DNA of 64,000 nt from Hyphomicrobium denitrificans ATCC 51888. Its GTDB lineage: Bacteria; Pseudomonadota; Alphaproteobacteria; Rhizobiales; Hyphomicrobiaceae. The notes under the pieces were generated by a model. The model was not told the origin of the DNA, did not search any database, and worked only from the letters and a program-made list of their open reading frames with translations. The stretch lies in assembly GCF_000143145.1 (NCBI RefSeq), contig NC_014313.1:2232001-2296000 (forward strand). The letters run 5' to 3'. Positions 8,536 to 24,532 of the stretch are shown here, piece by piece. Numbering within the stretch: position 1 is the first letter of the stretch; every line of letters begins with the position of its first letter. The translations under genes were made by a program, and so were the position numbers.

Positions 8536-8543
8536 CACGTCTT

Positions 8544-8711: not shown

Positions 8712-8752
8712 GCGCTTGGCGGCCGGCTCGCGGAACGCGAGTCGCCAAGCGC
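8712..8752 (-). repeat. Covarying-arm hairpin, copy 1
   Basis: Minus orientation. Outer arms are GCGCTTGGC / GCCAAGCGC and the inner stem is CTCGCG / CGCGAG around GAA. The constant internal loop is GGCCGG opposite TC. A spare copy of the left arm lies directly to the left, at 8698-8708. It ends three bases before the ssb stop codon. Confidence 0.85.
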
Positions 8753-8755
8753 AAA

Positions 8756-9277
8756 CTAAAATGGGATTTCGTCGTCGAGGGCTTTGTCGAAGCCGCCTTT
8801 GGAGCCACCACCGCCGCCGCCGGATTTCGATGACACCCGGCGCGGCTCGCTTGAGCCAAAGCCGCCATCGTTCCCGTAATCGGGTCCGCTTTCCTGCATG
8901 CCGACCGACGCGCCACGGCCGCCGGACGCTCCATCGAGCATCGTCAACGTACCGCTGAAGCCTTGCAGCACGACCTCGGTTGAATACTTCTCAGCGCCGG
9001 ACTGGTCGGTCCACTTGCGCGTCTGAAGCGCGCCTTCGATGTAGAGCTTCGCGCCCTTCTTCACATATTGCTCGACGACCTTGCACAGCGGCTCGCTGAA
9101 AATGACGACACGATGCCACTCGGTCCGCTCCTTGCGCTCGCCGGTCTGCTTATCGCGCCAGGTCTCGCTGGTCGCCAGACTGAGATTGGCGATCGGCCGC
9201 CCGTCCTGCGTGCGGCGAATTTCGGGGTCCTTGCCGACGTTGCCGACGAGAATGACCTTATTGACCGAACCTGCCAT
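8756..9277 (-). CDS. ssb: Single-stranded DNA-binding protein
   Basis: The 173-residue protein has an N-terminal OB fold (about 1-112; [20 protein letters not shown], then TEWHRVVIF and [13 protein letters not shown]), a Gly/Ser-rich linker, and the acidic tip DDEIPF that recruits repair and replication partners. It coats single-stranded DNA as a tetramer during replication, recombination and repair. In most relatives ssb is divergent from uvrA; here the two keep that orientation but are 4.2 kb apart. A perfect SOS box lies about 200 bases upstream. Confidence 0.98.
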
Positions 9278-9290
9278 TCGCAGTCTCCTT

Positions 9291-9305
9291 GAAACATGTT
9301 TGAAC
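9291..9305 (-). promoter_or_regulatory. Degenerate second SOS-like site near ssb
   Basis: Read on the minus strand the sequence is GTTC-AAACATG-TTTC, one mismatch from GTTC-N7-GTTC. It lies 14 bases before the ssb ATG, where a bound repressor would block initiation. One mismatch in a short motif could be chance. Confidence 0.35.
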
Positions 9306-9479
9306 TTCAGACGCGGATTGCGTCATCGGCCGGTTCATCTCGGACTGATCTGAAATGAACGCGGCGGCATCTTAGTTGTATCGGCGGCAGCACCGCAGAA
9401 TCTCCAACCGACATTAGAGGCTAGGGCGTCGGGCTTCCTCAGATCATTTGCCGTTGTCCACGCTTTCCATGCCGATCAT

Positions 9480-9494
9480 GTTCTCTTTATGTTC
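9480..9494 (+). promoter_or_regulatory. LexA (SOS) box, alphaproteobacterial type
   Basis: GTTC-TCTTTAT-GTTC matches the direct-repeat GTTC-N7-GTTC operator recognised by LexA in alphaproteobacteria. It lies in the intergenic region upstream of ssb (minus) and of the cysteine-cluster gene at 9651 (plus). In relatives a box in this position serves the divergent ssb/uvrA pair. Confidence 0.75.
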
Positions 9495-9650
9495 TAATAT
9501 AGAGAGGCAGCTGCAACAGCGCAAGGGAAAATCCGAACCGAGTGGCGGCGGTCGCCCTGGTGGCGCTTGACTGGCGGATGCCATGGTCTAAGGCGATGGT
9601 TTGTTTTTCACGCGCGGCCGCCGCGCACGACCGGAGCACCAAAGCCGCAG

Positions 9651-10019
9651 ATGGCTTACTATAATTGTCTGAAATGCCCGGGATATTGCTGCTCGTATCC
9701 GGTCATCGCGCTCAACAAGCGCGACGTCGAACGCCTCGCGAAATATTTCAAGGTGACGTTCAACACGGCGAAGAAGCGCTATACGCGCGAAGGCCACGGG
9801 CACAAATATTTGATGCGCCGCAAGGGCGACAAGCATTACGGCCGCATCTGCCAGTTCTTCGACACGAAAGAGCGCCGTTGCACGATTTATCATGGGCGCC
9901 CGCGCGCCTGCCGCGAGTATCCCGGCAACGGACGCTGCGGCTACTATGACTTCCTGATGCACGAGCGCCGCTGCCAGAACGACGACACGTTCGTTGCCAT
10001 CACCAATCACAAGGATTGA
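9651..10019 (+). CDS. YkgJ-type cysteine-cluster protein (zinc or iron chelatase-like)
   Basis: This 122-residue protein has an N-terminal CLKCPGYCC cluster and a C-terminal set of cysteines in CTIYHGRPRACREYPG, RCGYYDF and ERRC, the CxxCxxxCC plus YxxRPxxCR pattern of the YkgJ family (UPF0153). Members are thought to bind metal, and some act in protein oxidation or maturation, but no biochemical role is firm. The ATG at 9651 is preferred over an upstream frame extension because the cysteine cluster begins the conserved part. The SOS box at 9480 lies upstream and could place it under LexA by accident of rearrangement. Confidence 0.8.
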   Translation: MAYYNCLKCPGYCCSYPVIALNKRDVERLAKYFKVTFNTAKKRYTREGHGHKYLMRRKGDKHYGRICQFFDTKERRCTIYHGRPRACREYPGNGRCGYYDFLMHERRCQNDDTFVAITNHKD

Positions 10020-10095
10020 GATTCGGTCTTGCGCTAAAGGGACTGCGCTTCATCGAGCCGGCGGCCCGGCCTGACCTGTTTTGCAGGAGACGATG

Positions 10096-10509
10096 ATGAA
10101 TGCTCCAGCCATCGGCCCGTCTCTGATACCCGGCGTCTATTACGACAATCTGCAGTCTGGCGTCGATTGGCTGATCTCCACGCTCGGCTTCGAAACCAAG
10201 GCGTCCTACAACGGACCGAGTGGAGAGCCCGAGTTCGCAGAACTCGCGTGGGGCAATGGAATGATTTTCGTTTCGAGGACGCCGCGCACCGGACCTTGGG
10301 CAAAGGCCGGCAAAACCTGCATCTGCCTTGTTGCGAATTCGCACGCCGTCGAAGCGCACTATCGACAAGCTGTCGATGCAGGCGCACGCATCCTCAGGCC
10401 GCTAAGGCGCAGCACGTCGCCAGCGTTTCCCGACGGGGTCATGGGATTTGATCTCGAAGATCCAGAGGGCAATCTCTGGACTGTCAGCGAATATCAGCCG
10501 GCGCGGTGA
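10096..10509 (+). CDS. VOC-superfamily (glyoxalase/bleomycin-resistance fold) protein
   Basis: About 137 residues with the two beta-alpha-beta-beta-beta modules of the vicinal-oxygen-chelate fold: IPGVYYDNLQSGVDWLISTLGF at the front and MGFDLEDPEGNLWTVSEY at the end, where the Glu of DPEGN is the usual metal ligand. The substrate is unknown. CAGGAGA lies five bases before ATG 10096; ATG 10093 is an alternative. It is probably a separate unit, closed by the terminator at 10624. Confidence 0.85.
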   Translation: MNAPAIGPSLIPGVYYDNLQSGVDWLISTLGFETKASYNGPSGEPEFAELAWGNGMIFVSRTPRTGPWAKAGKTCICLVANSHAVEAHYRQAVDAGARILRPLRRSTSPAFPDGVMGFDLEDPEGNLWTVSEYQPAR

Positions 10510-10623
10510 CGTTTCCGGTCGCTCGTGTGTCGACGCGCGAGACGATTTTGCAAAGTCACCGCGCTCAGACGCGCGCTTCGTGCATCTCACTTCGGCCAAT
10601 TCAACCGGCATCGCCAAAAATTA

Positions 10624-10660
10624 AACCCCGCCGCATCCTCGGATGCGCGCGGGGTTCGTT
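10624..10660 (+). terminator. Intrinsic terminator after the VOC gene
   Basis: AACCCCGC and CGCATCC pair with GGATGCG and CGCGGGGTT, followed by CGTTTTT on the plus strand. Confidence 0.85.
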
Positions 10661-11182
10661 TTTACCTTCGATGGTGTGCCCAGACTAAAACCGGGCTTTT
10701 GAAGCGAGGCTCTGGCTCACCTTTACGGCTGCCGCCCTCGTGCGATAGATCCAAATTGTGAACGTGACAGCCGTCATGAGCGCGGCCAAAGTCTCGAGAG
10801 CGCCCGTCAAGCTGCTGACCTCGTGAACGTCAATCCTCGAGGTCCCGTTGAATGATCCGGTGGAGTCATCTCCCTCCTCGATTGTTTCGCCGTGTCACGC
10901 TTACCGCCTTTTTCATCCGGCGCACGGGACTTTACAAACCACATGCGCCGAACAACTCGCCATCACGAACGCTGCTCATCGACCCCATCGGCCGAGATGC
11001 CTTTGCGATCATTGGCGACAGCAGCACCGTCACCACTTAAATCTGTGCCTCAAATGCGGTGTCGTCAAGACGTCATATGCGAGAATGCGATCAAAAATAT
11101 TTAACGGTCGCACATCGTTTGTATACGGTGCATTTAACTTTCCGGAACCGAGAATAGACAACGTTCGAAGCGCGAGCATTCA
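10661..11182. other. Gene-poor interval before the GFA gene
   Basis: No convincing gene was found. A minus-strand frame at about 10687-10890 would encode a short polypeptide with one hydrophobic stretch (ALMTAVTFTIWIYRTRA), but it has no in-frame start with a ribosome site and may be a relic. Plus-strand frames here overlap each other and lack family features. Confidence 0.4.
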
Positions 11183-11578
11183 ATGAGCGAATTGCATGCG
11201 ACTGGCAGTTGCCTTTGCAGGGGTGTGATTTTCGAAGTTGCCGGCGCGCTCCGTCCGGTGCTCGCGTGTCATTGCTCGCAATGTGCGAAAACAAGCGGAA
11301 ACTTCGCTGCAATGACTTCCTGTCCGCGCGAGAATTTGAAAATTCTCTCCGACGAGACACTGCGCTGGTTCCGATCCTCGGAAACAGTCGAGCGCGGTTT
11401 CTGCACTCGCTGCGGCGGCAATCTGTTTTGGAAGCAAACCGGAAGCAGCGATATCTACATCACCGCAGGCACGCTTGATACGCCGACAGGCCTCAAAATC
11501 AGCGAGCACATCTTCGTTGCATCGAAATCGGATTACTACGATCTGACTGACGGTCTTCCGCAGAAGGACGAATGGTGA
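11183..11578 (+). CDS. GFA / CENP-V family zinc protein
   Basis: The 131-residue protein shows the zinc ligands of the glutathione-dependent formaldehyde-activating (GFA) fold: GSCLCRGV, then CHCSQCAKTSG, then CTRCGGNLFW. The family includes Gfa, which was proposed to speed S-hydroxymethylglutathione formation, but most members have unknown substrates. It stands alone, in convergent arrangement with the gene ending at 11631. Confidence 0.88.
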   Translation: MSELHATGSCLCRGVIFEVAGALRPVLACHCSQCAKTSGNFAAMTSCPRENLKILSDETLRWFRSSETVERGFCTRCGGNLFWKQTGSSDIYITAGTLDTPTGLKISEHIFVASKSDYYDLTDGLPQKDEW

Positions 11579-11630
11579 GGCGCACGGCGAGGCGAATTCA
11601 AATCGCGCGCCACCGTGCGCCAAGCCGACG

Positions 11631-12251
11631 CTATTTGATCGGGCACGCTTTATCGCACGGCACGTTTTCGCTCTTCTCAACAGAGCCGCGGAAAATCGAC
11701 ACCGTTTCACGCACGCATTGTCCGCCCGACTGCACGACGCGGATAATGTTGTCGCCGGATTTTGCCTGGCAAAGAACAGACATGTCTTGCGCCACCTCAA
11801 ACGACTGCTGGTCGTCGGCCGTATTTTCCGCGGCGAGCGCGCGTGGCACGATCAGGTCGAGCAGGCTCGCGGTGTTCAAGGTCAACGGTTTGGGAAGGCG
11901 ATCGAACGCGATCCATTCGTAATTGACCTGCCCGCGAGGTCCGTTCACGCGGATCGAGATGTCGCCGGTCTTCGGGCAGCTTCCGACCTCGACGCGGGCG
12001 GAGCCCTGCGTAACGAGCGCGCGATAGTCGATCTTGCAGCCGAAATTCTTCTCCAGCAGCGCCGCCTGCGCGAGGCGATGATCGACCTGGTTGAACGGCA
12101 CGTCGTTTTTCCAGGAGAAGTAGAGATTGCGCGCCGTCGGGACGGCGGCCGCGACCGATACGGCGAGCACGAGCAGCTTGACGAGCGTCAGCGTGCGGTT
12201 CACCGGATGCGCGGGGTGCGAAATGTTCAGCAGAGATGGAGCGTCGCTCAT
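11631..12251 (-). CDS. Hypothetical single-pass membrane protein
   Basis: About 206 residues. The ATG at 12251 (MSDAPSLLNISHPAHP) is chosen because GAGG lies nine bases upstream; an upstream extension has no such site. One membrane segment is predicted (LTLVKLLVLAVSVAAAVPTA), followed by an extracytoplasmic region with four cysteines in pairs (GCKIDY/GSCPKTG and QCVRE/PCDKACPIK) that could form disulfides. No family was recognised. It is the last ordinary gene before the repeat-rich interval leading to uvrA. Confidence 0.65.
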   Translation of the reverse strand: MSDAPSLLNISHPAHPVNRTLTLVKLLVLAVSVAAAVPTARNLYFSWKNDVPFNQVDHRLAQAALLEKNFGCKIDYRALVTQGSARVEVGSCPKTGDISIRVNGPRGQVNYEWIAFDRLPKPLTLNTASLLDLIVPRALAAENTADDQQSFEVAQDMSVLCQAKSGDNIIRVVQSGGQCVRETVSIFRGSVEKSENVPCDKACPIK

Positions 12252-12578
12252 TCCAGTGCCCTCATTGATAACAAGCCCGCAAAAGTTTCCGAAACCCATA
12301 GGATGGCGTCAAGGCTGAATGGCGTCGTTTTGCTGACAGCCGTGTGAACGGGTGGTGGAGCGAACGCCGTTCGTGATGGCGTGTGTGGATTGCGCATGAG
12401 TTGTGTGGGGGCCGATGTGGCGGATTGGCCCTCCGCTTTTTCCACGCGCTTGATGCTTCGGATTTCGCTTGTTCCTCTCACTTCAATGCTGCGGATTTGG
12501 CCGTCGCTTTTCTCGCTCCCCTTGGAACTTTGAAGCAGTTCGCGGGCAGTCCGCAGGCAGAGAGACTTCCGCCCTTCT

Positions 12579-13069
12579 CCCCTCCCCTTCACCGGGGAGG
12601 GGTTGGGGGTGGGGTGGAGGGATTGGCGGATTGTTGGCGAAATTCGCGGGCAGCGCGTGGAGGTAGTCGTCCGGTGCGACGGAAGGAGTCGCGGTCGTTC
12701 CAACGCATAACGCCTGGCGCGTTCCCCCACCCCTAACCCCTCCCCGCAAGGGGGAGGGGAATTAGCGACGGTTCGCTCTGCCTTGTTGCGTGGCGAAACG
12801 GATGCAACCGGCGGTGCCTCAAGCTGCCCCTCACCCTAACCCTATCCCCGTAAAGGACGGGGAGAGGGAAAAGCTCCGTGCTCTGCACGCGCGAACAGCG
12901 TTCGTGACGGTCCATCTATCTTTCCTTGAACTTGGCTCGGCAGCGACGTGTGCCTTCCCCTCAGGGCAGGGGTCGGGGGTGGGGTGAAGGGCTTGGCGGA
13001 TTGCCGGGGCAAATTTACGTGAGGCTGCCCCTCACCCTAACCCTCTCCCCGTAAAGGACGGGGAGAGGG
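12579..13069. repeat. Cluster of GC-rich CCCTCTCCCC-type palindromes
   Basis: Five related imperfect palindromes lie in this gene-free stretch, centred near 12590, 12748, 12855, 12970 and 13055. The best is CCCTCTCCCCGT-AAAGG-ACGGGGAGAGGG at 13041-13069. Most are flanked by CCTCACCCTAA or its complement TTGGGGGTGGGG, as in dispersed REP-like repeats of alphaproteobacteria. The rest of the 12252-13521 interval shows no gene. Confidence 0.8.
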
Positions 13070-13088
13070 GATTTGCCTGCGAAGGTCT

Positions 13089-13312
13089 CCCCACTTCCCC
13101 ACTTCCCCACTTCCCCACTTCCCCACTTCCCCACTTCCCCACTTCCCCACTTCCCCACTTCCCCACTTCCCCACTTCCCCACTTCCCCACTTCCCCACTT
13201 CCCCACTTCCCCACTTCCCCACTTCCCCACTTCCCCACTTCCCCACTTCCCCACTTCCCCACTTCCCCACTTCCCCACTTCCCCACTTCCCCACTTCCCC
13301 ACTTCCCCACTT
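13089..13312. repeat. Tandem repeat of 28 copies of CCCCACTT
   Basis: The 8-bp unit CCCCACTT is repeated 28 times without a visible error, giving 224 bp with all purines but one per unit on the minus strand. It adjoins a degenerate copy of the GC-rich palindrome (CCCGTGAAGGATGGGGAAAGG at 13313 onward). The unit therefore seems to have arisen by slippage at one arm of such a palindrome. It ends about 210 bp before the uvrA start. Copy number is expected to vary and may be misassembled. Confidence 0.95.
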
Positions 13313-13521
13313 CCCGTGAAGGATGGGGAAAGGCGCGGCGTTCCGCGGCTTGGGGGGCGGAAACAGCAGGCGGCCGTGCTTGGCCGTCTCCCAGCAAAGG
13401 GATTGCTTTGTGGTGGCCATCGACGCGGGGCCTTGAAAATGGGGCTGTCCGCCATCATTTTTGGTCGCTCGCGTGGGGTCGCATTGCGGCGCCCCCCGCC
13501 CTTCGGCTAGACCGTTGCCCC

Positions 13522-16653
<3,132 letters not shown>

Positions 16654-16696
16654 TTCCACTCCACTTGCCACCAGTGAGAGAAAGCACGAGGGAATT

Positions 16697-16830
16697 CGTC
16701 ATCCTCGGCCGAGCAATGCGAAGGCCGGGGATCCAGCGTAAGACTCGTCGAAGACGCACTATAGAGCCTACGGCGCGCCTTGTGCTGGATCCCCGAACGG
16801 CCTCGCAGGCTCGACCGTTCGAGGATGACG
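16697..16830. repeat. Terminal-inverted-repeat intergenic element, copy 2
   Basis: The ends CGTCATCCTCG and CGAGGATGACG are perfect 11-bp inverted repeats. The interior matches copy 1 at 8544 over AAGACTCGTCGAAGACG and GGATCCCCGAAC. It is non-coding and lies 44 bp after the uvrA stop codon. Confidence 0.8.
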
Positions 16831-16936
16831 GGTCCGGGCAGCCCGCGAAGCAGAGCCTCACCCCGAAAATAAAGTCGTCACGCGTGTCGGAACCGGAGGT
16901 GCGCGGCCGTCTTAGTAAGATAACGCGCACGCCATC

Positions 16937-16976
16937 GCGCACGGCGGCCGGCTCCTCGCAGAGGAGCGCCGGGCGC
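16937..16976 (-). repeat. Covarying-arm hairpin, degenerate copy 2
   Basis: GCGCACGGC, GGCCGG and CTCCTC-GCA-GAGGAG are intact, but the TC and part of the right arm have decayed (CGCCGGGCGC). It is followed by AAACAAAAAAA, the A-rich tail seen beside other copies. Confidence 0.6.
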
Positions 16977-16988
16977 AAACAAAAAAAC

Positions 16989-17029
16989 GCGCTTTCCGGC
17001 CGGCTCGCCGGAGGCGAGTCGGAAAGCGC
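16989..17029 (-). repeat. Covarying-arm hairpin, copy 3
   Basis: Arms GCGCTTTCC / GGAAAGCGC, inner stem CTCGCC / GGCGAG, constant GGCCGG opposite TC. It ends 21 bases before the ATG of the phnB-like gene, so it would be in or near that gene's leader. Confidence 0.88.
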
Positions 17030-17050
17030 TTACAAAAAGGGAGAGCACTC

Positions 17051-17524
17051 ATGGCCAAGAACACGATTTGCGTCTGGTACAACAAGGACGCCGAAGAGGC
17101 AGCGCGTTTCTACGCCGAGACGTTTCCCGACAGCTCCATCGGCTCCATCCACCGCGCGCCGAGCGACTTCCCGTCAGGCAAGGCGGGCGACGTGATCGTC
17201 GTCAACTTCACGGTTATAGGCATCCCGTGCATCGGACTTAACGGAGGCCCGGCGTTCCAGCACAGCGAGGCGTTTTCGTTCCAGATTTCGACCGAGGACC
17301 AAGCCGAGACCGACCGCTACTGGAACGCCATCGTCGGCAACGGCGGCCGCGAGAGCGAATGCGGGTGGTGCAAGGACAAGTGGGGCGTCAACTGGCAGAT
17401 CACGCCGCGCGTGCTGACCGAAGCGCTGGCCATCGGCGGCGACGAAGGCCGCCGCGCGTTCGAAGCCATGATGACGATGCGGAAGATCGATGTTGCGGCG
17501 ATTGAGAAGGCGAGGAAGGGGTGA
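17051..17524 (+). CDS. PhnB-like VOC-superfamily protein (3-demethylubiquinone methyltransferase-like domain)
   Basis: The 157-residue product begins ICVWYNKDAEEAARFYAETFPDSSIG and contains the GDVIVVNFTVIGIPCIGLNGGPAFQHSEAFSFQISTEDQAE core of the PhnB/3-dmu-9_3-mt group. Despite the old name, these proteins are not shown to be methyltransferases, and the substrate is unknown. A GGGAG site lies about six bases before the ATG. The gene sits between hairpin copies 3 and 4 and between two uvrA 3' ends (the intact one at 16653 and the relic at 17576), so it was probably acquired or moved with that block. Confidence 0.85.
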   Translation: MAKNTICVWYNKDAEEAARFYAETFPDSSIGSIHRAPSDFPSGKAGDVIVVNFTVIGIPCIGLNGGPAFQHSEAFSFQISTEDQAETDRYWNAIVGNGGRESECGWCKDKWGVNWQITPRVLTEALAIGGDEGRRAFEAMMTMRKIDVAAIEKARKG

Positions 17525-17527
17525 TCC

Positions 17528-17566
17528 CGCTCGGCCGCCGGCTCCCGGAACGGGAGTCGCCGAGCG
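17528..17566 (-). repeat. Covarying-arm hairpin, copy 4
   Basis: Arms CGCTCGGC / GCCGAGCG, inner stem CTCCCG / CGGGAG around GAA, internal loop CGCCGG (one change from GGCCGG) opposite TC. It starts four bases after the phnB-like stop codon and is followed by CCAACAAAA. Confidence 0.85.
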
Positions 17567-17575
17567 CCAACAAAA

Positions 17576-17692
17576 GCGGCGGGCACGCTAGAGGACGTTG
17601 GAAGGTGAAGGAGAGCTTCACCGGGCGGTAGCTGAAGCCGGTGTTGGCGCGGAAGCCGAAGGTGGCGGGGAAGAAGGCGGCGGCGGAGTAAC
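17576..17692 (+). pseudogene. uvrA: Relic of a uvrA 3' end
   Basis: From GCGGCGGGCACGC to GGCGGCGGAGTAA the sequence aligns base for base with the last ~40 codons of uvrA (16470-16653). Translated it gives KESFTGR-stop-LKPVLAR, against [15 protein letters not shown] in the intact gene, with a one-base deletion earlier and an in-frame TAG. The two copies differ at many third positions, so this is not a recent duplication but looks like a foreign or old uvrA terminus left by recombination. Confidence 0.8.
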
Positions 17693-17704
17693 GAAAAAAT
17701 ACGT

Positions 17705-19144
17705 TCAGCCTTTTCGTGGCGCGACTCCTCCTTTGCGTTTCATGCGAGCCGCCACTCGGAAAATATCCGGAACATTTATCCGGTTTACCGCCCGACGCTC
17801 GACTACGCCGAGTTCGATCAAAGCATCAAGTAGTGCTTGTTCTTTCGTGTCATGCTCCGAAAGTTCAAGTTGAACCGGTGCTGCTGGCCGTTCGGGATTA
17901 ATCCTCTTTTTTATGCTTTGGAGGACTTTAGCATTTTGCCATCGAGCAATGATTTCGTGCTCTTCGCAAGGCACAGTAAGACCATCGAGCGCATTCAAAG
18001 CATCTTCCACCCACGGATGGTCTTCCTTCAATTCCTCCCGTCGCGTATCAGAGGCCTTTAAGACCCCCGCATGAAGGCCATTGCTGTCGATCGCTAACCC
18101 CGTTTTGCTACTTGCGCGTTCTGCGGCCTCTCGCAGCGCTATCAAGAAGCTCCTAAGACTAGTTTCGCCATATGCATCCGCAAGATGCTTTGGAACCCAG
18201 GTATATGTTCGACCACGCTTTTTGTTGGCGCCCATGAACTCGCCTGCAAAAGCGGAAAAAAGGGCGTCCTGCTTATTCTCATCTTCTTTCAGTTCTCTGG
18301 GTAGATCGGCGCCTCCCACTGCTATGGGTACCGCTCGGCCAAGAGTCCGTATTACTTTATTCGCATGCACATCTCTCCAAAGCCGCGTAAACACTGCCCC
18401 ATAAAGGTCAACAGGTCTCCACTCCAAAGCTACAGCCGCAGTTTGCAATTTTGAAAAATCCGCAAACGTTTTGCGCTGCATATCTTTGAACTGGTCTATG
18501 CGCATGAAAAGCTTTAATCGAATCGCACGTCTAGCACTCATCTCATGAGCCAATTTGGCCAGAGCCCTGGTCAACTTCCGAATTGTCTCCCAATCATTCG
18601 CGAGAACATCCAACGCATCGAAGACAATTAAAAGAGGTCGTTCTCTTTTTGACCGATCGAAGTCAGAGCTCAAAAGGAGATCTTCGAAAGTCTCAGGATC
18701 GTTCTCGAGCCACTTTACACGTTCATTTAGTTTTTGCGGCCCCGCGCCTCGGTCCAGCGCCTTCAAAACTACCGATCGCCAAATTGATACGGGGTCCTTT
18801 GCGACCACCAACGCTGACCTGAGAGCTGCCGGAGAGGGTGCGATCCCTCCTGTGCCCAGGGCACCTTCATGGAATCCGAGTTCGACATCAAGTCTATTAA
18901 GACCAAGAAGCGGATAAGCTTTGGCAGCGGCAGCACGGCCGTCCTTGGCCGCCAGAACGGCAGCCCAAAAGCTTTTGCCAACGCCACGCCCCCCTATAAC
19001 CAGTGCACGATTTGGATCCAACGCGTCCGCATGGTGTAGGGGAGCATAAATTTCATCAATATTGGGCTTTTCGGCCGCCTTGTGAGCAACCGATGGATTA
19101 AGCCGACGTAGGACCGCTCGAATCGGCACTTCACTGACCGCCAT
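17705..19144 (-). CDS. P-loop NTPase of a putative defence operon
   Basis: About 479 residues, with the start at 19144 supported by GGAGAG five bases upstream. It overlaps the end of the ParA-like gene by 14 bases, so translation is probably coupled. Walker A is GGRGVGKS (51-58) and Walker B is LLIVFDALD (171-179), with a sensor-like strand LKLFMRID (210-217). The C-terminal ~100 residues look like a winged helix (LLDALIELGVVERRAVNRI). It has the look of a STAND/AAA-type regulatory ATPase, but no named family was recognised. Codons and base composition are more A+T-rich than in the neighbours. It is the third gene of a unit reading HEPN-like, ParA-like, NTPase. Confidence 0.75.
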   Translation of the reverse strand: MAVSEVPIRAVLRRLNPSVAHKAAEKPNIDEIYAPLHHADALDPNRALVIGGRGVGKSFWAAVLAAKDGRAAAAKAYPLLGLNRLDVELGFHEGALGTGGIAPSPAALRSALVVAKDPVSIWRSVVLKALDRGAGPQKLNERVKWLENDPETFEDLLLSSDFDRSKRERPLLIVFDALDVLANDWETIRKLTRALAKLAHEMSARRAIRLKLFMRIDQFKDMQRKTFADFSKLQTAAVALEWRPVDLYGAVFTRLWRDVHANKVIRTLGRAVPIAVGGADLPRELKEDENKQDALFSAFAGEFMGANKKRGRTYTWVPKHLADAYGETSLRSFLIALREAAERASSKTGLAIDSNGLHAGVLKASDTRREELKEDHPWVEDALNALDGLTVPCEEHEIIARWQNAKVLQSIKKRINPERPAAPVQLELSEHDTKEQALLDALIELGVVERRAVNRINVPDIFRVAARMKRKGGVAPRKG

Positions 19145-20477
19145 CGGTACTCTCCAGACCAAAGAGTACTTCTGCAAGTCGATTTACGAAAGGACCGAAC
19201 GTCCGATCGAAAAACTCTCGCGTGAGTTGTTCCCGTCGTGCCGTCGGGTCGAATTCCGCGTACGCCGCGTCGTACGGGATGGGCCAAGCGAAGTGAGGAG
19301 CGTCAGGGTCGTCTAAGTCAAAATTGAATGCATCAAAATCGCCAGGGGAAGCCTCCTCATAAATGTAAGCAGAAAAGACCTCTTGTGCTTGATCGCGAAA
19401 GTGGGAAAGCGCTTCGACACCGCGGTCTGCTTTTGCATGTATCATTCGAAGACGAGATCGCCAATCATCAATTGATTTAGCCTCTTTGGCAAATCGACCG
19501 AGATGAGCCAAAAGATAGCTGTATCCGTCGAATGTCTGCGGCGTGTCCACACCGAACATTAGAATTTCCCCGCCGAGCCCCATAATGGCAGCCGATGTGC
19601 TTTCGCTGAGACCAGCTCGCGCGTCCACAAATACAGCATCATATCTTCGTCTAGCGGTGAATGCTTTGACAAGTTCCCTTACCTGGTCGCCAAATGAATT
19701 CATCGCTCCGCGCTCATTGGGATCATCGAGGAATGCGCGTCCAAGCTTAGGTAAAATATTTTGGGGGTTTTTACGGCCGATTCGCCCGACTGCGGGGACG
19801 ATCTCCACGAGCCCTCGACCGGCAGTGAGAGGGGAGGGAGATATGCAATCCTCCAAAAAGCCATCGTCAACACCATTGAGGCCATTTTCCACGAAATAGT
19901 CGAGCGCCCCATATTTCGGTAAATTTTCTATTGGAAGCAAAACTGAAGCTAGCCCAGGAGCTTCTAGATCAAGGTCAATAACCAGAATATTTTTGGATTG
20001 GTGCGAGAAAGCTGCCGCGGCGACCGCGAGCGCCGTGGTTCTCCCCACTCCACCTTTCACGCTGAAGAAGACGGCCAGCGGTGGTTTAGAGCTTGTAAAG
20101 TGTGGTTGGTTCCAATCCTGGCCTACTATGCGTCTATCAACTAGTTGAACTGCGACGTAGGATCCATCTACAAGAACACGCTCCGCGATCGCCCCCTCGT
20201 TTGATTGCAGGCTATCGTCGAAAATTTCTTGCGGCGTTGCCGTCGGTCCGGAAACATAAGCTCCCAAGCTCGCTTCAGCAGCAGTGTCAAAGCGCTTCCG
20301 TGTACTCTGATCGACATCGCCGCGAATAATAAGCGTCAATCTACCGTTTGCATCGCGTAGTATGAGGGAACGACCTAAAAATTCTTCCCCGAATTCAGAG
20401 AGTGCGAGGCGAACGAACGTCGGCAAAGCGTCATCAAAGCGGGCTACAGTCGAATGGTGGTTGCTGCTTGGCGTCAT
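19131..20477 (-). CDS. ParA/MinD-like ATPase with N-terminal extension
   Basis: The 448-residue protein has an N-terminal domain of ~130 residues with no recognised family. A ParA/MinD-type ATPase follows: deviant Walker A KGGVGRTT (141-148, signature Lys141), DLDLEAPG (168-175) and Walker B AVFVDARAGL (281-290). ATPases of this form dimerise on ATP and act as switches for DNA partition, localisation or partner activation. No ParB, centromere repeats or replication gene is nearby, which argues against plasmid partition. TGAGGAAATGAA provides a ribosome site, and the gene starts nine bases after the HEPN-like stop. The coupled P-loop partner suggests a multi-subunit complex. Confidence 0.78.
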   Translation of the reverse strand: MTPSSNHHSTVARFDDALPTFVRLALSEFGEEFLGRSLILRDANGRLTLIIRGDVDQSTRKRFDTAAEASLGAYVSGPTATPQEIFDDSLQSNEGAIAERVLVDGSYVAVQLVDRRIVGQDWNQPHFTSSKPPLAVFFSVKGGVGRTTALAVAAAAFSHQSKNILVIDLDLEAPGLASVLLPIENLPKYGALDYFVENGLNGVDDGFLEDCISPSPLTAGRGLVEIVPAVGRIGRKNPQNILPKLGRAFLDDPNERGAMNSFGDQVRELVKAFTARRRYDAVFVDARAGLSESTSAAIMGLGGEILMFGVDTPQTFDGYSYLLAHLGRFAKEAKSIDDWRSRLRMIHAKADRGVEALSHFRDQAQEVFSAYIYEEASPGDFDAFNFDLDDPDAPHFAWPIPYDAAYAEFDPTARREQLTREFFDRTFGPFVNRLAEVLFGLESTDGGQ

Positions 20478-20486
20478 TTCATTTCC

Positions 20487-20873
20487 TCAGGGTCTCAGAC
20501 CCGCTGCGCCGATTGCCCGTTGGGCCAAACCTCTCCATTTTCTATATGTCGCTTGGTCGACCAATCCATCGATCTCGTAACGGGCTGCAACACGCCAATC
20601 ATCAAAAAAGCCTCCTTTTGTCTGGGCCAAGAGGTTCCGCAGCGCTGTCTCTTGTGAATTTCGAGATTTAACATGTTTAAGCAGGGCATTAGCCAAATCG
20701 GGTAAATGAACCCGTGGTGAGTTGACCGGTTCCATTATAGCGAAAGCGTGCTTCAAAGCGCACTCCGCTGCGAATCCTATTAAGTGCCCCGCATTGTCAA
20801 ACCGACCCAGATCTGCAAGCTTTTCGCTATCAAAGTAGTGACGCAAAGCTGACTGGTTATATGCTTCCGCCAT
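20487..20873 (-). CDS. Small HEPN-like helical protein, first gene of the putative defence operon
   Basis: About 128 residues (start MAEAYNQSALRHYFDSEKL; frame extends upstream to 20966 without family likeness). The segment GRFDNAGHLIGFAAECALKH resembles the helix pair of HEPN domains, which are often RNases in toxin-antitoxin and phage-defence systems. It contains an R-x5-H arrangement (Arg24 to His30) compatible with the HEPN R-x4-6-H site. The C-terminal part, DDWRVAARYEIDG and KWRGLAQRA, is also helical. Whether it is an active RNase is inference. No clear ribosome site was found, so the start is uncertain. Confidence 0.6.
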   Translation of the reverse strand: MAEAYNQSALRHYFDSEKLADLGRFDNAGHLIGFAAECALKHAFAIMEPVNSPRVHLPDLANALLKHVKSRNSQETALRNLLAQTKGGFFDDWRVAARYEIDGLVDQATYRKWRGLAQRAIGAAGLRP

Positions 20874-20989
20874 AGAAGACTCATTTAAAAGACAATGACT
20901 ATAATCGCATTTCATACGACGGCTTAGGCGTCTGGCAAGGCCGTCGGCCCATTGAGCGCCCCCCAAAAATACTTATCCCCGCTTTCTCC

Positions 20990-21240
20990 GCCTCCCCCAT
21001 AATCCCCTCACCCATCCGGCAAGGGCTGCATGCGAGGCGTCGCGCGGGGCTCGGGTGGGGCAGCCCGACCCGCTCGCGTCACGCGCGCGATGCGGACAAG
21101 GCGACCGGCCAAGTCCGCACGGCATGAGAGAAACCGTGTGCGGAATATCCCGCTTCCTTAAGTGGCCTGATCGGAACCCTGTTCTCGGTCTGTCACGGAG
21201 CGGACCGGTTCCGAGACTAAAATTGCGAAGACCGCGCCGC
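20990..21240. other. GC-rich structured non-coding segment at the right edge of the operon
   Basis: No gene fits here. Several imperfect inverted repeats are packed together: GGGCTCGGGT/AGCCCGACCCG near 21045-21072, TGCGGAC/GTCCGCA near 21089-21118, and TCCGCACGG/CCGTGTGCGGA near 21113-21143. It could be the relic of a structured RNA or of a mobile element end; no family was assigned. Confidence 0.4.
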
Positions 21241-21275
21241 GGAACCCGTCCGCTTCGTGCTTTACTCTTTTGCTT

Positions 21276-21316
21276 GCGCCATCCGACTCCCCTCCGGGGA
21301 GCCGGCCGGATGGCGC
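21276..21316 (+). repeat. Covarying-arm hairpin, copy 5
   Basis: Plus orientation. Arms GCGCCATCC / GGATGGCGC, inner stem CTCCCC / GGGGAG, constant GA opposite CCGGCC, preceded by CTCTTTTGCTT. Confidence 0.88.
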
Positions 21317-21332
21317 GTGTGCGTTATTGATG

Positions 21333-21371
21333 GTGCAATCGACTCGCGTTCCGCGAGCCGGCCGGTTGCAC
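21333..21371 (+). repeat. Covarying-arm hairpin, copy 6
   Basis: Arms GTGCAATC / GGTTGCAC (one G-T wobble if transcribed), inner stem CTCGCG / CGCGAG around TTC, constant GA opposite CCGGCC. Confidence 0.85.
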
Positions 21372-21395
21372 ATGCTTGGAGCGTCGTTCTTATTT

Positions 21396-21435
21396 GCACA
21401 CGGCGACTCCCTGCGGGGAGCCGGCCGCCGTGTGC
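21396..21435 (+). repeat. Covarying-arm hairpin, copy 7
   Basis: Arms GCACACGGC / GCCGTGTGC, inner stem CTCCC / GGGAG, constant GA opposite CCGGCC, preceded by TTCTTATTT. Confidence 0.88.
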
Positions 21436-21496
21436 GTTCGCTCGGATCACCGACCGCCAGCACAGGCGTGTGTCGTCGTTCTTCGCAGTTTATTTG

Positions 21497-21535
21497 GTGC
21501 TGGCGACTCCCCTGCGGGGAGCCGGCCGCCAGCAC
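21497..21535 (+). repeat. Covarying-arm hairpin, copy 8
   Basis: Arms GTGCTGGC / GCCAGCAC, inner stem CTCCCC / GGGGAG, constant GA opposite CCGGCC. A 35-base flank (GCGTGTGTCGTCGTTCTTCG and onward) occurs both before it (from 21468) and after it (from 21538), a local direct duplication. Confidence 0.88.
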
Positions 21536-21563
21536 ATGCGTGTGTCGTCGTTCTTCGCACTTT

Positions 21564-21592
21564 CGGTCGAGCGAGGCCGTTCGAGGATGACG
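21564..21592. repeat. Partial terminal-inverted-repeat element (right end)
   Basis: GGCCGTTCGAGGATGACG repeats the right end of the elements at 8544 and 16697; the left part is missing. Confidence 0.65.
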
Positions 21593-21673
21593 GTTTCACT
21601 CATTCCCGGCGGTTCAATTCTGCGCGAAAGAACCAACATCAAACACGCCGGGCCGCCGGCTCAACACACATCC

Positions 21674-21714
21674 GCGCCATCCGGCCGGCTCCGCGATGCG
21701 GAGTCGGATGGCGC
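21674..21714 (-). repeat. Covarying-arm hairpin, copy 9
   Basis: Minus orientation. Arms GCGCCATCC / GGATGGCGC (same arms as copy 5), inner stem CTCCGC / GCGGAG around GAT. It ends 20 bases before the phnA-like start codon. Confidence 0.88.
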
Positions 21715-21734
21715 CCTCAATAGAGGCATCCTTC

Positions 21735-22079
21735 ATGAGCACACTGCCACCCTGCCCGAAATGCTCCTCCGAATTCACCTACGAGGACGGCAACCTCTAC
21801 GTCTGTCCGGAGTGCGCGCACGAATGGAGCCCGCAAGCGGCCTCCGCAGCCGACGATGACGACGTGAAGGTCTACCGGGACTCGGCGGGCAACACCCTGC
21901 AAGACGGCGATACCGTCATCGTCATCAAGGATCTGAAGCTGAAGGGCTCAAGCAATGTCGTGAAGATGGGCACCAAGGTGAAGAACATCCGCCTTGTCGA
22001 CAGCGATCACGATATCGACTGCAAGATCGAGGGCATCGGCCCGATGAGCCTCAAGTCCGAGTTCGTGAAGAAAGCGTAG
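21735..22079 (+). CDS. phnA: PhnA/YjdM-family zinc-ribbon protein
   Basis: The 114-residue protein has an N-terminal zinc ribbon ([25 protein letters not shown]) and the C-terminal domain [22 protein letters not shown]...[17 protein letters not shown] of the PhnA family. It was once linked to alkylphosphonate use because of its position in E. coli, but its role is not established. No phosphonate genes lie here. The ATG at 21735 directly precedes the zinc ribbon. It lies between hairpin copies 9 and 10, and the downstream copy starts 34 bases after the stop. Confidence 0.88.
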
Positions 22080-22113
22080 GTGGGTGCTGGCGGCTCCGCT
22101 TCCGTTTTTGATT

Positions 22114-22154
22114 GCACACGGCGACCCCCTTGCGGGGAGCCGGCCGCCGTGTGC
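22114..22154 (+). repeat. Covarying-arm hairpin, copy 10
   Basis: Arms GCACACGGC / GCCGTGTGC (same as copy 7). The inner stem is slightly decayed (CCCCCTTGCGGGGAG), with constant GA opposite CCGGCC. A half-copy with a different arm (GTGCTGGCGGCTCCGCTTCCG in two parts) lies at 22084-22104. Confidence 0.82.
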
Positions 22155-22169
22155 GTTTGTCGGGATCTT

Positions 22170-22210
22170 CGTCATCCTCGGGGCGCGGAGCGAAGGCCGG
22201 GGGTCCAGCG
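22170..22210. repeat. Partial terminal-inverted-repeat element (left end)
   Basis: CGTCATCCTCGGGGCG and AAGGCCGGGGGTCCAGCG repeat the left half of the elements at 8544 and 16697. It runs into half of a covarying hairpin (GGAACGCGAGTCGCTCGGCG) at 22210-22230, a composite of both repeat types. Confidence 0.65.
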
Positions 22211-22234
22211 GAACGCGAGTCGCTCGGCGCAAAC

Positions 22235-22265
22235 AAAAAAGCCGGACGGAGATTTTCCGCCCGGC
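22235..22265 (-). terminator. Intrinsic terminator of the His/Arg-rich protein gene
   Basis: GCCGGACGG / CCGCCCGGC with a seven-base loop and AAAAAA on its left gives a minus-strand stem followed by a T-run, 40 bases beyond the stop at 22306. Confidence 0.8.
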
Positions 22266-22305
22266 TTGAATTGTCAGATCGTGTCCCGCCGATGCGGGTG
22301 TCAGC

Positions 22306-22605
22306 TCACGGGCAGAACCACACCGGGCCGACGATCACGCAGCCGCGCGAACGCCAGTTGTAGGGGCGGTGGCTGTAGCGATGCCAGCCGCGATAGTTGC
22401 GGTGCCGGTAATGGCGGGTGCCGTAGCCGCGACGGAAGTGGCGATGCCGATAATGTCCGCGGCGATGCTGGACGAGCTCGATGCCGCTCGTTTTCGCCTG
22501 GCTCAGACCGGCGAGGCCCGCCGGGGCCGGTGCGGCGGAAGCCGCGGAACTTCCGAGGGCCGTTCCAAGTGCCAAAAATCCAATAATTGCAAGACGTTTG
22601 ATCAC
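22306..22605 (-). CDS. Small secreted His/Arg/Tyr-rich protein
   Basis: The 99-residue precursor has a clear signal peptide (MIKRLAIIGFLALGTALG, cleavage near ASA-APA). The mature part is dominated by HRRGHYRHRHFRRGYG-type repeats and ends RGCVIVGPVWFCP, with two cysteines that could pair. Similar short basic exported proteins occur throughout Hyphomicrobiales without known function; cation or surface-polymer binding is only a guess. An A+T-rich AGGAGG-like site (TAGGAGGATATCG) precedes the ATG. Confidence 0.75.
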   Translation of the reverse strand: MIKRLAIIGFLALGTALGSSAASAAPAPAGLAGLSQAKTSGIELVQHRRGHYRHRHFRRGYGTRHYRHRNYRGWHRYSHRPYNWRSRGCVIVGPVWFCP

Positions 22606-22934
22606 GATATCCTCCTAGCTGGTTCGTGATTTTGGCCGAGGCCGTGCGCAGGCGCAAGGGCATCCTCAGGCACACAGCGGACGCATTATTGCGTCGTGCC
22701 GAATTCCAAGAAAACGCGTGCAGCGTAAAATTCCGTCGCTTTTAAGCAAATCGCGCCCTGGTGCGGGGGGATGCGTGCGATAATCGAGCGCTTGAGCGTG
22801 CCGCGCATGGTTGCTGCTTCGTATCCAACGTGGTTCGCAAGCCTGGCTCGCCGATCATGCCGTTTTAACGGGCCGCGCATTAGAGATCACGCAAGACCTC
22901 ACCGCATTCCGAAATATTTCGAGGAGATCACGCG
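22606..22934. other. Intergenic region before the carbonic anhydrase gene
   Basis: This 329-base divergent region has no convincing gene, terminator or known operator. The carbonic anhydrase ribosome site (GAGGAGATC) is at its right end. Confidence 0.45.
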
Positions 22935-23642
22935 ATGCTCACACGACGGCATTTCTGCTGCAGCGGTCTGATCGCCGGCAGCCTTCTCACCTTCGATCGT
23001 GCAGTCGCCGCCGGGAGCTGCGCGGTGCCGACGCGCAATCTGCAGGCGGCGCTGACGCCCGACGAAGCGCTCGCCAACCTCAAGGATGGCAATGCGCGGT
23101 TCCTGTCGGGCAGCACGCTCAACTGCGACTTGCTCAAGCAGGTGCATGCGACGTCAGCGGGGCAATTTCCGTCGGCCGTCGTCATCGGATGCATCGACTC
23201 GCGCGTTCCGCCCGAACTCGTCTTCGACCAGCGCATCGGCGACATCTTCAGTGCGCGGGTTGCGGGCAACGTCGTCAACGATGATATCATCGGAAGCTGC
23301 GAGTTCGCGACGAAACTCTCCGGCGCGCGGTTGATCGTCGTGCTCGGGCATAGCGAGTGCGGGGCGGTCAAAGGCGCGATCGACGGCGCGGAGCTTGGCG
23401 AGCTGACGCAGCTGCTCGCGAAGATCAAGCCGGCGGTTACGATCTGCAAGGATGCGCCGGGCGATCACATCTCAAAGAACACGTCGTTCGTGCAGCAGGT
23501 GGCGGTGGCGAATGCCAAGCTCGCCGCCGATAACCTGACGAAGACCAGCGGCGTGCTTCGCGATCTCGTCGATGCCAAGCAGCTCAAGATCGTCGCCGCG
23601 ATGCATGACGTCTCGACGGGGCGCGTGTCGTTTCTGGAGTGA
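22935..23642 (+). CDS. Exported beta-class carbonic anhydrase
   Basis: The enzyme interconverts CO2 and bicarbonate. Zinc ligands are Cys86 and Asp88 in GCIDSRV, then His139 and Cys142 in GHSECGAV. The 235-residue protein begins MLTRRHFCCSGLIAGSLLTF, a twin-arginine signal (RRHF), so the folded zinc enzyme is probably sent to the periplasm. This is less common than the cytoplasmic form and may serve bicarbonate supply at the membrane. A GAGGAG site lies eight bases before the ATG. It stands alone. Confidence 0.92.
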   Translation: MLTRRHFCCSGLIAGSLLTFDRAVAAGSCAVPTRNLQAALTPDEALANLKDGNARFLSGSTLNCDLLKQVHATSAGQFPSAVVIGCIDSRVPPELVFDQRIGDIFSARVAGNVVNDDIIGSCEFATKLSGARLIVVLGHSECGAVKGAIDGAELGELTQLLAKIKPAVTICKDAPGDHISKNTSFVQQVAVANAKLAADNLTKTSGVLRDLVDAKQLKIVAAMHDVSTGRVSFLE

Positions 23643-23667
23643 TCGTGGCGGCCCTGACGCCGGACGA

Positions 23668-23946
23668 TCAGTATCGGCCGGGGCCGTAATAGCCGTCCGG
23701 GCCGATATAGATGCGCATTCCCGGCCCGCGACGGCCATAGTCGAAGTCGCGGGCGTAGCTGTCGCGGTAGTCGGTGTTGCCACCGTAGCGCCGGAGCTTC
23801 TCGCGGTCCTGACTGTTGAGGTAATAACCGGCGCGCTCCTTGGCGCGGGCGCCTTCGACTTCGGAGATCATGTCCGCCTGCGCGACGGGAGCGCCGAATG
23901 CCACGGCCAACCCGACGCTTACGGCTGCGGTCCATATCCGTTTCAT
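23668..23946 (-). CDS. Small secreted protein of a two-member paralogous set
   Basis: The 92-residue precursor has a signal peptide ending PVAQA and a mature part DMISEVEGARAKERAGYYLN, then DREKLRRYGG and a Gly/Tyr/Arg-rich tail. The pattern EVE-x-AR...RAG...D..L.R.(Y/W)G recurs in the protein at 31210-31485, so the two are paralogues. No function is known. It is convergent with the carbonic anhydrase gene, 25 bases apart. Confidence 0.7.
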   Translation of the reverse strand: MKRIWTAAVSVGLAVAFGAPVAQADMISEVEGARAKERAGYYLNSQDREKLRRYGGNTDYRDSYARDFDYGRRGPGMRIYIGPDGYYGPGRY

Positions 23947-24074
23947 GGCAACTCCTGTTCGCGCATCATCGGAGGCAGCTTAGCGAGGCTAATCTATATA
24001 GGGTGTAAACGTCCGCCCACGCCCCAGCTGTTCCCGCCGTCTCTTGCCGCAGGTATTGGATGGTTAACGCGGCG

Positions 24075-24362
24075 CTACTCGCGCAGGACCGAGCGGATCT
24101 GATCCTCGTACTGCTGCACGGCTTCGAGCGCGCGGGCTTTCATGACGGGATCGGAATTCTGGGAGGCCGTGAAGCCTTCGATCGCAGCCCGCGCGTTGTT
24201 GACGATCTGACCGGCGGCGCCTTGCGGATTCATCTCGCGGCTCGCAATCTTCTGCAGAAGCTGGGTGAGAATGACGCCGGTTGCGAGCGACAAGCCGGAG
24301 AGTTCAGCGACTTCGCGCTTCAAGTCCGCGAGGGTTTTTTCGGTGTTGGTCGATTCAGACAT
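24075..24362 (-). CDS. Small cytoplasmic helical protein of unknown function
   Basis: The 95-residue protein reads MSESTNTEKTLADLKREVAE, then LSGLSLATGVILTQLLQKIA, NNARAAIEGF and KARALEAVQQYEDQIRSVL. It is predicted all helical, without a signal peptide or membrane segment. No family was recognised. It stands alone upstream of the two hairpins at 24442-24532. Confidence 0.65.
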   Translation of the reverse strand: MSESTNTEKTLADLKREVAELSGLSLATGVILTQLLQKIASREMNPQGAAGQIVNNARAAIEGFTASQNSDPVMKARALEAVQQYEDQIRSVLRE

Positions 24363-24441
24363 AGGTTCCGACTCCGTGCATCAGGATTTCCTGGCGTTGC
24401 TAATACGGCGGCGGCGAGCGCACAAGATGGGGCTTTGAATT

Positions 24442-24479
24442 GCGCCTTGCGACTGCGCTTCGCAGAGCCGGCCGCAAGG
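24442..24479 (+). repeat. Covarying-arm hairpin, decayed copy 11
   Basis: Inner arm CCTTGC / GCAAGG and constant GA opposite CCGGCC are kept. The inner stem is GACTGCG / CGCAGAG (two bases lost), and the outermost arm bases no longer pair. Confidence 0.7.
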
Positions 24480-24491
24480 TAAGTTCTTCGG

Positions 24492-24532
24492 GCACCTTGC
24501 GACTCCGCTTCGCGGAGCCGGCCGCAAGGTGC
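24492..24532 (+). repeat. Covarying-arm hairpin, copy 12
   Basis: Arms GCACCTTGC / GCAAGGTGC, inner stem CTCCGC / GCGGAG, constant GA opposite CCGGCC. It shares its arm core with copy 11 and ends 37 bases before the SDR start codon. Confidence 0.88.

Follow-up and report, generated by a model that had tools for sequence, protein, structure and literature searches.

Hairpin Copies in the Window

A stretch of 64,000 nucleotides from the chromosome of Hyphomicrobium denitrificans ATCC 51888 (NC_014313.1, positions 2,232,001 to 2,296,000; hereafter the window) carries a family of short imperfect hairpins in which the outer stem differs in sequence between copies and its two arms remain complementary. 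Eight copies had been listed in an earlier note made from the letters of the window, which put their number at about twelve. A covariance model, R1, was built from an alignment (A1) of 41 copies of the same genome lying outside the window and was used with a cut-off of E<1e-5. It found 13 copies in the window, including all eight of those listed, each correctly placed, so that the estimate was right (Table 1). Two more R1 rows in the window, with E of 0.43 and 0.94, were taken as noise. The copy at 17527..17567 lies directly 3' of a PF06983 gene (17051-17524), and four same-strand copies starting with 21276..21316 are found inside 260 bases.

Table 1. Hairpin copies and the uvrA frame in the window.
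Feature	Positions	Strand	Description	Basis
Hairpin copy	8712..8752	-	Arms GCGCTTGGC; core CTCGCG-TTC-CGCGAG; adjoins ssb (PF00436)	R1 E 3.1e-15
uvrA open frame	13408..16653	+	One in-frame hairpin copy near C-terminus	Pfam UvrA domains PF17755, PF17760; translation
Hairpin copy in frame, uvrA C-terminus	16554..16594	-	Variant core CTCTCCTTCGTCGAG, without 6-bp inner stem	R1 E 1.8e-10
Hairpin copy	16937..16976	-	Partial decay	R1 E 1.8e-9
Hairpin copy	16989..17029	-	Arms GCGCTTTCC; core CTCGCC-TCC-GGCGAG	R1 E 4.3e-14
Hairpin copy	17527..17567	-	Arms CGCTCGGC; core CTCCCG-TTC-CGGGAG; loop CCGGCG, not CCGGCC	R1 E 4e-12
Hairpin copy	21276..21316	+	Arms GCGCCATCC	R1 E 1.4e-13
Hairpin copy	21332..21372	+	Arms GTGCAATC/GGTTGCAC, one T-G	R1 E 9.9e-9
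Hairpin copy	21396..21435	+	Arms GCACACGGC; 22-nt core	R1 E 1.9e-10
Hairpin copy	21496..21536	+	Arms GTGCTGGC	R1 E 6.5e-12
Hairpin copy	21674..21714	-	Arms GCGCCATCC; core CTCCGC-ATC-GCGGAG	R1 E 5.2e-12
Hairpin copy	22114..22154	+	Arms GCACACGGC; core has GACCC for GACTC	R1 E 2.2e-9
Hairpin copy, truncated	24445..24479	+	Core GACTGCG for GACTCNN	R1 E 7.7e-6
Hairpin copy	24492..24532	+	Arms GCACCTTGC; core CTCCGC-TTC-GCGGAG	R1 E 2.6e-14

Structure and Copy Number of the Element

The genome is a single contig of 3,638,969 bases, in which the pattern GACTCN{3,20}GAGCCGGCC has 57 matches (40 plus, 17 minus), compared with one for the reversed pattern. The layout common to these copies consists of a 5' tail, an arm, GA, CTC, three variable bases, a 3-nt loop, the complements of the three bases, GAG, CCGGCC, and the complementary arm; the arm mostly begins with GCGC, and CG often follows the 3' arm. 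The element is about 52 nt long and its hairpin 41 nt, with an outer stem of 8-9 bp that is nearly free in sequence, a core of 23 nt including the loop bases, and a fixed internal loop of GA opposite CCGGCC. The fixed loop described in the earlier note was confirmed, with the corrections that it faces either strand and that one window copy has CCGGCG. The A/T-rich tract that it saw outside the GA-side arm is a conserved T-rich tail 5' of that arm (consensus TTTTGNTT), and three tails (32507, 1161424, 2597087) sit, judged by eye, right after terminator-like stems.

There are 36 distinct 9-nt arms in the 57 copies and 111 distinct 8-nt arms in a larger retrieved set of 403. The inner stem is short and occurs in few forms; 14 core types were counted among the 55 copies whose core is 23 nt long, with CTCGCGTTCCGCGAG (19) and CTCCGCTTCGCGGAG (11) at the top. 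Covariation had been claimed for this stem too, and is found at its inner three pairs but not at CTC/GAG, which is nearly fixed; the copy at the uvrA C-terminus lacks the 6-bp inner stem. On contig C1 of G019 (G000 being the genome studied, other G numbers further genomes, and L numbers loci), a core without the usual inner stem, GACTCTCCTTCGTCGAG, was seen exactly in 8 of 28 copies and in 13 when near variants are included.

A search requiring no more than a perfect 8-bp arm pair next to CCGGCC gave 396 distinct sites, compared with 1, 6, 9, and 16 for four decoy hexamers, in DNA that had largely been retrieved through the GACTC/GAG pattern. The spacer is 23 nt in 365 of these 396 sites. In 2.0 Mb of stretches taken blind to the pattern, 41 sites have at least seven of eight arm pairs, 24 of them with GACTC/GAG and four with GACAC/GCG. 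The subfamily starting with GACAC makes up 21 of the 396 sites and mostly has GCG for GAG, and its inner stem thereby retains an A-C mismatch. Since this subfamily is without GANTC, the CcrM site, that site is not essential, and it was rejected as the cause of the fixed GACTC. GANTC occurs in the 32-nt flanks of the hairpin in 47 (5') and 57 (3') of 365 cases, against a background of 5.1%, and tandem neighbours may contribute to these counts.

Copies often lie close together. Among distinct same-strand pairs less than 120 bp apart, 40 of 56 have the same outer arm within one mismatch, and 24 of these 40 differ in core; in G000 alone, a common arm was found in five of ten same-strand neighbour pairs. 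Tandem spacing peaks at 51, 54, and 57. Neighbours less than 150 bp apart in six genomes (n=45) comprise 32 tandem arrangements and 13 in plus-minus order (tails outward), with none in minus-plus order. The folding energies of the two strands differ (-17.3 vs -20.3 kcal/mol for the copy at 8712; -15.5 vs -19.1 for that at 16989).

Covariation of the Outer Stem

Outer positions 2-8 form Watson-Crick pairs in 95-98% of the 57 copies, compared with 38-63% after the 3' arms had been re-dealt. In A1, the covariation score is 0.668 against 0.153 +/- 0.018 in shuffled alignments (0 of 500 shuffles) and at most 0.155 with slid partners, and 98.4% of cells are paired (69.9% shuffled). Pairs changed on both sides (11 vs 10.1) and further pair types (24 vs 22.1) are not above the shuffles in A1, and one-sided (G·U) states are absent at outer pairs 2 to 8. 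The genome-wide test thus came out positive for the central claim of the earlier note, that the arms vary and yet stay complementary. Its wider claim of a conserved shape with changing sequence has strong backing from the pairing in the 57 copies, the CCGGCC-arm search, and the A1 score.

The larger set of 403 copies, from which 21 of 424 with fewer than five of eight pairs had been removed beforehand, gives 2821 cells: 2712 Watson-Crick pairs, 30 G·T, 35 A·C, and 44 of other kinds. Positions 2-8 pair without a flaw in 318 copies. The preference for wobble pairs expected of a structured RNA is not found in this set. As G·T and A·C are equally rare, the pairing is seemingly maintained at the DNA level and not via selection on RNA. 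Rfam at its gathering score gave only a tRNA (tRNA-Leu) in the window, and with the wobble test this led us to reject an RNA family. A tRNA-Leu (GAG) gene lies at window positions 54597-54683 on the minus strand.

Copies Inside Genes

Open frames read through 13 of the 57 copies; the other 44 were judged extragenic or not by a crude gene caller only. The 13 frames are those of terminase (3), portal (2), mazG (2), ileS, uvrB, uvrA, a HAD-like protein, an E2 subunit (PF00198), and a short frame, the HAD-like assignment being below the Pfam cut-off. The start codons of the HAD-like and E2 frames are uncertain, and their copies are N-terminal. Homologous protein was found on both sides of the insert for seven copies (terminase 3, mazG 2, ileS 1, portal 1), and the uvrA and uvrB copies lie at gene ends. 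In-frame insertion thus occurs in the unrelated protein genes ileS, mazG, terminase, portal, uvrA, and uvrB.

The terminase, portal, protease, capsid, and connector genes form a phage-head cluster (G000:C1:1152426-1162424), where 11 of the 57 copies are found in about 8 kb. We take this cluster for a gene transfer agent, going by its spread. The terminase had a match in 32 of 37 genomes; of the 14 genomes that belong to other families of the order, 12 have it. The alignment covered the 24 of 30 loci in which the frame could be picked by its motif; six, including that of G007, were dropped. The insert is missing from all seven terminases of other families (L423, L425, L426, L429, L431-L433). 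Judged by eye, extra residues are present at the first site in 17 of 17 genus members and at the second in 11 of 17, and not all are recognisable as the hairpin. Hairpins in or beside the terminase gene were also found in G001, G003, G007, G017, and G018.

In ileS, the query has about 22 extra residues at the insert site relative to the solved chain 8c9e_A. The exact hairpin pattern is present at one site in seven of 21 aligned genomes; elsewhere the inserts are altered or unrelated, and G038 has none. A different kind of insert (SPRGEAGAARAGEGAV...PHPNPLP or similar) occupies the same site in L449, L453, L439, L440, and L451 (G010, G021, G003, G017, and G023), so that it looks like a common insertion hotspot. 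For mazG, the exact pattern is found in seven of 16 aligned genes, as single copies or pairs in various orders; four of the 20 given were lost at frame finding. Another in-frame repeat-like insert, of a family different from the hairpin, was seen in uvrA (window 14293-14421). A second, unrelated repeat of about 135-147 bp lies at window positions of about 16695-16831 and 8542-8688 and has many copies, in both orientations, throughout the genus.

Distribution and Comparison with a Sister Genome

The hairpin pattern is present in 21 of the 22 genus genomes, the one without it being G004 (84% complete). In other genera of the family it was found in eight of 14 genomes, three of which have at least 20 copies. 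In the order, to which Bradyrhizobium also belongs, it is at background level (eight of 24 genomes, at most three copies). A 24-base hairpin pattern matched at least 120 stretches in named genomes, and the 80 listed are from Hyphomicrobium, Hyphomicrobiaceae, Rhizobiales/Hyphomicrobiales, Alphaproteobacteria, and Proteobacteria. A class-wide R1 scan of 289 genomes matched only the own genome, with at most 22 first-look candidates scored per genome in the rows shown; because it missed 34 of the 57 own exact-pattern copies and scored few candidates, it excludes only genomes with many strong copies.

Comparison of the 57 copies with the sister genome G017 gave 29 aligned copies, eight that could not be bracketed, and 20 without an adequate match in the retrieved G017 DNA. 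Both arms are altered together in G017 at 390468, 1295491, 1897293, and 277863; at 277863 the G017 arms contain one C-A mismatch. The core is altered at 2611073/2611127. The members of the inverted pairs 1725998/1726071 and 1161424/1161491 swap places, as if each pair had been inverted, and the copy at 234970 is reversed. Since double changes occur at the same site in the two genomes, a single-stranded DNA form or template switching, the candidate readings that the earlier note had suggested, would fit the comparison.

Orientation and Strand Polarity

Seven genus genomes consist of no more than five contigs, and in each of them most copies point one way. Counted for the first and second half of the main contig, the copies are 25+ 2- and 13+ 0- in G003, 1+ 17- and 5+ 45- in G018, 16+ 0- and 10+ 2- in G019, 30+ 7- and 19+ 5- in G007, 13+ 4- and 18+ 3- in G017, and 14+ 8- and 26+ 9- in G000 (binomial p of 8e-13 to 3e-3 in these six genomes). 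G001, whose hairpin counts and positions are those of H. facile DSM 1565 (G062), has 45+ 5- over five contigs. Isolated copies are likewise biased (G003 34+ 1-, G018 3+ 43-, G019 18+ 2-, G007 32+ 8-, G017 21+ 4-), most weakly in G000 (19+ 10-). Thirteen further genus genomes with matches are fragmented and give raw counts only, the sense of their contigs being arbitrary; in three the counts are one-sided (G002 8:2, G016 32:5, G020 47:13). Control of orientation by the chromosome half was not seen, and control by transcription is not supported by the crude gene caller, with which 16 of 18 copies between convergent genes, six of seven between two minus genes, and seven of 13 between two plus genes are plus.

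GC skew was measured at fourfold sites in 20-kb stretches, 20 in G000 and 10 in each other genome, with genes called by a crude codon score. In each of the five genomes tested, the two halves agree in the sign of its strand component (G000 +.123/+.054, G003 +.085/+.018, G018 -.057/-.131, G007 +.169/+.044, G019 +.057/+.161). The hairpin-facing strand is G-rich in both halves and the sign of skew equals that of the hairpins in all five, which are not independent cases since they are related and four were deposited in the same sense. The KOPS-like motif GGGNAGGG favours one strand in the first half and the other in the second (17:6/5:7, 6:1/1:9, 7:3/2:6, 11:3/1:4, 1:5/9:0), and this suggests a normal two-armed layout. 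Smaller samples show one strong arm and one near zero in G017 and G001, and weak skew throughout in G010. In H. sulfonivorans S1 (G060), the sign of skew largely switches with the motif, as in ordinary two-fork replication, with C9 and one C6 stretch as misfits and with three of five contigs having the motif on one strand only. Uniform skew across the whole chromosome has been reported in Microgenomates, with one-directional replication suggested (PMC7143001, in part), and in Hyphomonas the origin was not revealed by skew in the portion of PMC6650430 drawn on here.

No result is stranger than the polarity, or less well explained. The hairpins might report, or help create, a strand polarity of the whole chromosome, and in polarised genomes a single fork may copy large parts of both arms, or one template strand may be handled differently in budding mother and daughter; this is a speculative account that we hold to be distinctly unlikely. 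Under it, single-stranded hairpins would arise on one strand everywhere, and uniformly oriented hairpins may act as polar fork brakes that enforce the polarity.

Comparison with Known Systems

The element resembles repetitive extragenic palindromic (REP) sequences, REPINs, and BIMEs with their RAYT proteins in being a short, internally mismatched palindrome whose 5' tag is single-stranded, present in tens of copies in tandem and inverted pairs and mostly intergenic; a short imperfect palindrome in many copies, the mark of REP families, was found here. It differs in its nearly free outer stem, in the in-gene copies that are read through, and in its one-way orientation. REPs of E. coli have been described on either strand (PMC12306157, in part), and REP copy number is usually above 100 according to part of PMC2817692, more than the 57 exact-pattern copies found here. 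Dimers and a location near gene ends are shared with the GTAG- and CGTC-tagged REP superfamilies (PMC3733652, in part), whose tags are not in the Hyphomicrobium consensus; the main text of that paper, in the part available, does not mention Hyphomicrobium. The REP elements Br-REP1 and Br-REP2 of Bradyrhizobium are located in 3' untranslated regions (3'-UTRs), and the accessible part of their description gives Br-REP1 a consensus that is fixed, CCGGAATCTCGAGATTCCGG, and mentions neither a variable stem nor a CCGGCC loop (PMC5082802).

Rickettsia palindromic elements (RPEs) are alike in lying in frame in unrelated protein genes and in leaving the host frame open. They measure about 150 bp and fall into ten families (PMC10969869, in part), a length not approached by the tandem spacing of the Hyphomicrobium element, whose stem is also highly variable; the likeness is drawn from published descriptions of RPEs. 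Maintenance of stems by template switching has been described, in which compensatory changes of several bases re-establish the pairing in a single event (PMC8794818, in part), there in RNA genes and here in a repeated DNA element without known RNA role. Among the papers listed in searches of the open-access literature on REP/RAYT systems in Alphaproteobacteria, Hyphomicrobium palindromic repeats, and in-frame palindromes, none was seen to describe the hairpin family; subscription papers were not covered.

Origin and Maintenance of the Hairpins

On balance, the probable explanation is a genus-level REP-like hairpin with RPE-like tolerance in genes, that is, a selfish DNA element with a single-stranded form and with arms renewed by template switching. 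Such a hairpin would work in single-stranded DNA, and the invariant loop and the tail would be the parts recognised. One arm would be copied from the other by template switching, and the core would be exchanged among copies. In this proposal such copying preserves complementarity between the arms, with pairing renewed as the sequence drifts. Template switching would explain the paired change without wobble, the exchanged pairs, and the arm-sharing tandems, and it needs no special enzyme. Survivors in genes would be only those copies that keep the frame, and the strand bias would point to one strand, the same all round the chromosome, as the source of the active single-stranded form. The spread and the polarity of the element are inferred. 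A lost or novel single-strand nuclease, or selection by a binding protein, may act instead.

Several observations weigh against this explanation. One-way orientation is not general, since S1 is mixed within contigs (40+ 37-) and 11 fragmented genus genomes are not strongly one-sided in their raw counts; G061, with the same counts as G010, has 20+ 33-, mixed among the 23 of 53 rows listed, and the raw counts are not one-sided in G005 (15:19), G006 (16:9), G008 (9:10), G009 (9:11), G011 (22:27), G012 (22:11), G013 (7:5), G014 (11:7), G015 (3:4), and G021 (18:24). A core without inner stem is among the commonest (33 of 371), so that this stem is not strictly needed. In the sister genome, the outer arm is the same or altered on one side only at 32507, 67426, 1636840, 2240743, 2826893, 2929669, and 2611073, and the G017 stretches were picked around that genome's own matches, which favours occupied sites. 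The comparison of occupied and empty sites that the earlier note had proposed gave exchanged and co-changed copies, but no clean insertion boundary or target duplication was found in the sister-genome, ileS, and mazG comparisons. As no mobilising enzyme was found either, mobility is read from copy number, distribution, and exchange. Equal rates of G·T and A·C are also compatible with selection by a DNA-binding protein.

The earlier note had offered a REP/RAYT system as one possibility. A classical REP family could have been spread by a RAYT/TnpA-REP (Y1 HUH) transposase since lost or encoded in another genome, and stems would covary if the transposase read only shape, loop, and tail; the size, internal mismatch, 5' single-stranded tag, and pair arrangement are REP-like. 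In E. coli REPs both the bulge in the middle of the stem and the 5' GTAG are important, contacts to part of the stem being non-specific (PMC8266576, in part), and compensatory changes have been noted in REPIN hairpins (PMC3116915, in part). However, Y1_Tnp (PF01797) has no match in the whole G000 genome (other nucleases were not searched) and matches only one of 22 genus genomes, at 27.9 bits, in a search that was positive in five of 14 control genomes, yet hairpins are present in 21 of the 22. The consensus also has neither of the tags GTAG and CGTC at the stem foot (tail consensus TTTTGNTTGCGC). Linkage to a RAYT was rejected on the PF01797 counts, any enzyme involved is probably of another kind, and the classical system as a whole is unlikely. 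Somewhat harder still to credit is a site for a chromosome-organising or fork-acting protein, with selection on folded or looped DNA and a functional orientation. One-way orientation over both halves, the conserved loop and tail, and the different folding of the two strands agree with it; copies in genes and in tandem arrays, shared sites that differ between species, and the 77 mixed copies of S1 do not.

Selection on RNA, which the earlier note had also considered, would require a 3'-UTR stabiliser, a terminator, or a processed small RNA. It would account for the strong covariation, and 18 of 43 copies overlapping no called gene lie between convergent genes, compared with 6875 of 34719 intergenic bases lying between convergent genes in those stretches (crude caller). 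Selection on RNA is disfavoured on two counts: wobble pairs do not outnumber A·C mismatches, and orientation does not follow transcription. Rfam offers no match beyond the tRNA, in-gene copies occur in either sense, and, read tail first, the 3' flank has no T-run directly after the stem as an intrinsic terminator would, the T-rich tract lying 5' of the GA arm; we regard an RNA structure under selection as very improbable. Sites read as folded single strands by recombination, such as integron-like attC, have fixed unpaired features and a free stem sequence, a trait that the hairpins share. The layout speaks against them, with copies inside ileS and mazG, mixed pair orientation, and no cassette array noticed, an integrase search not having been made, and they are scarcely credible as an explanation.

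Implications

Hundreds of natural hairpins, many at orthologous sites, provide a test of how stem complementarity is kept without RNA selection. The inserts in ileS and mazG extend protein-coding palindromes beyond Rickettsia, to a genus that is not known to be intracellular. The hairpins also serve, unexpectedly, to mark strand polarity across a whole chromosome in a budding bacterium, and, if the polarity reading is true, H. sulfonivorans S1, with mixed hairpins and largely flipping skew, would be its natural control.

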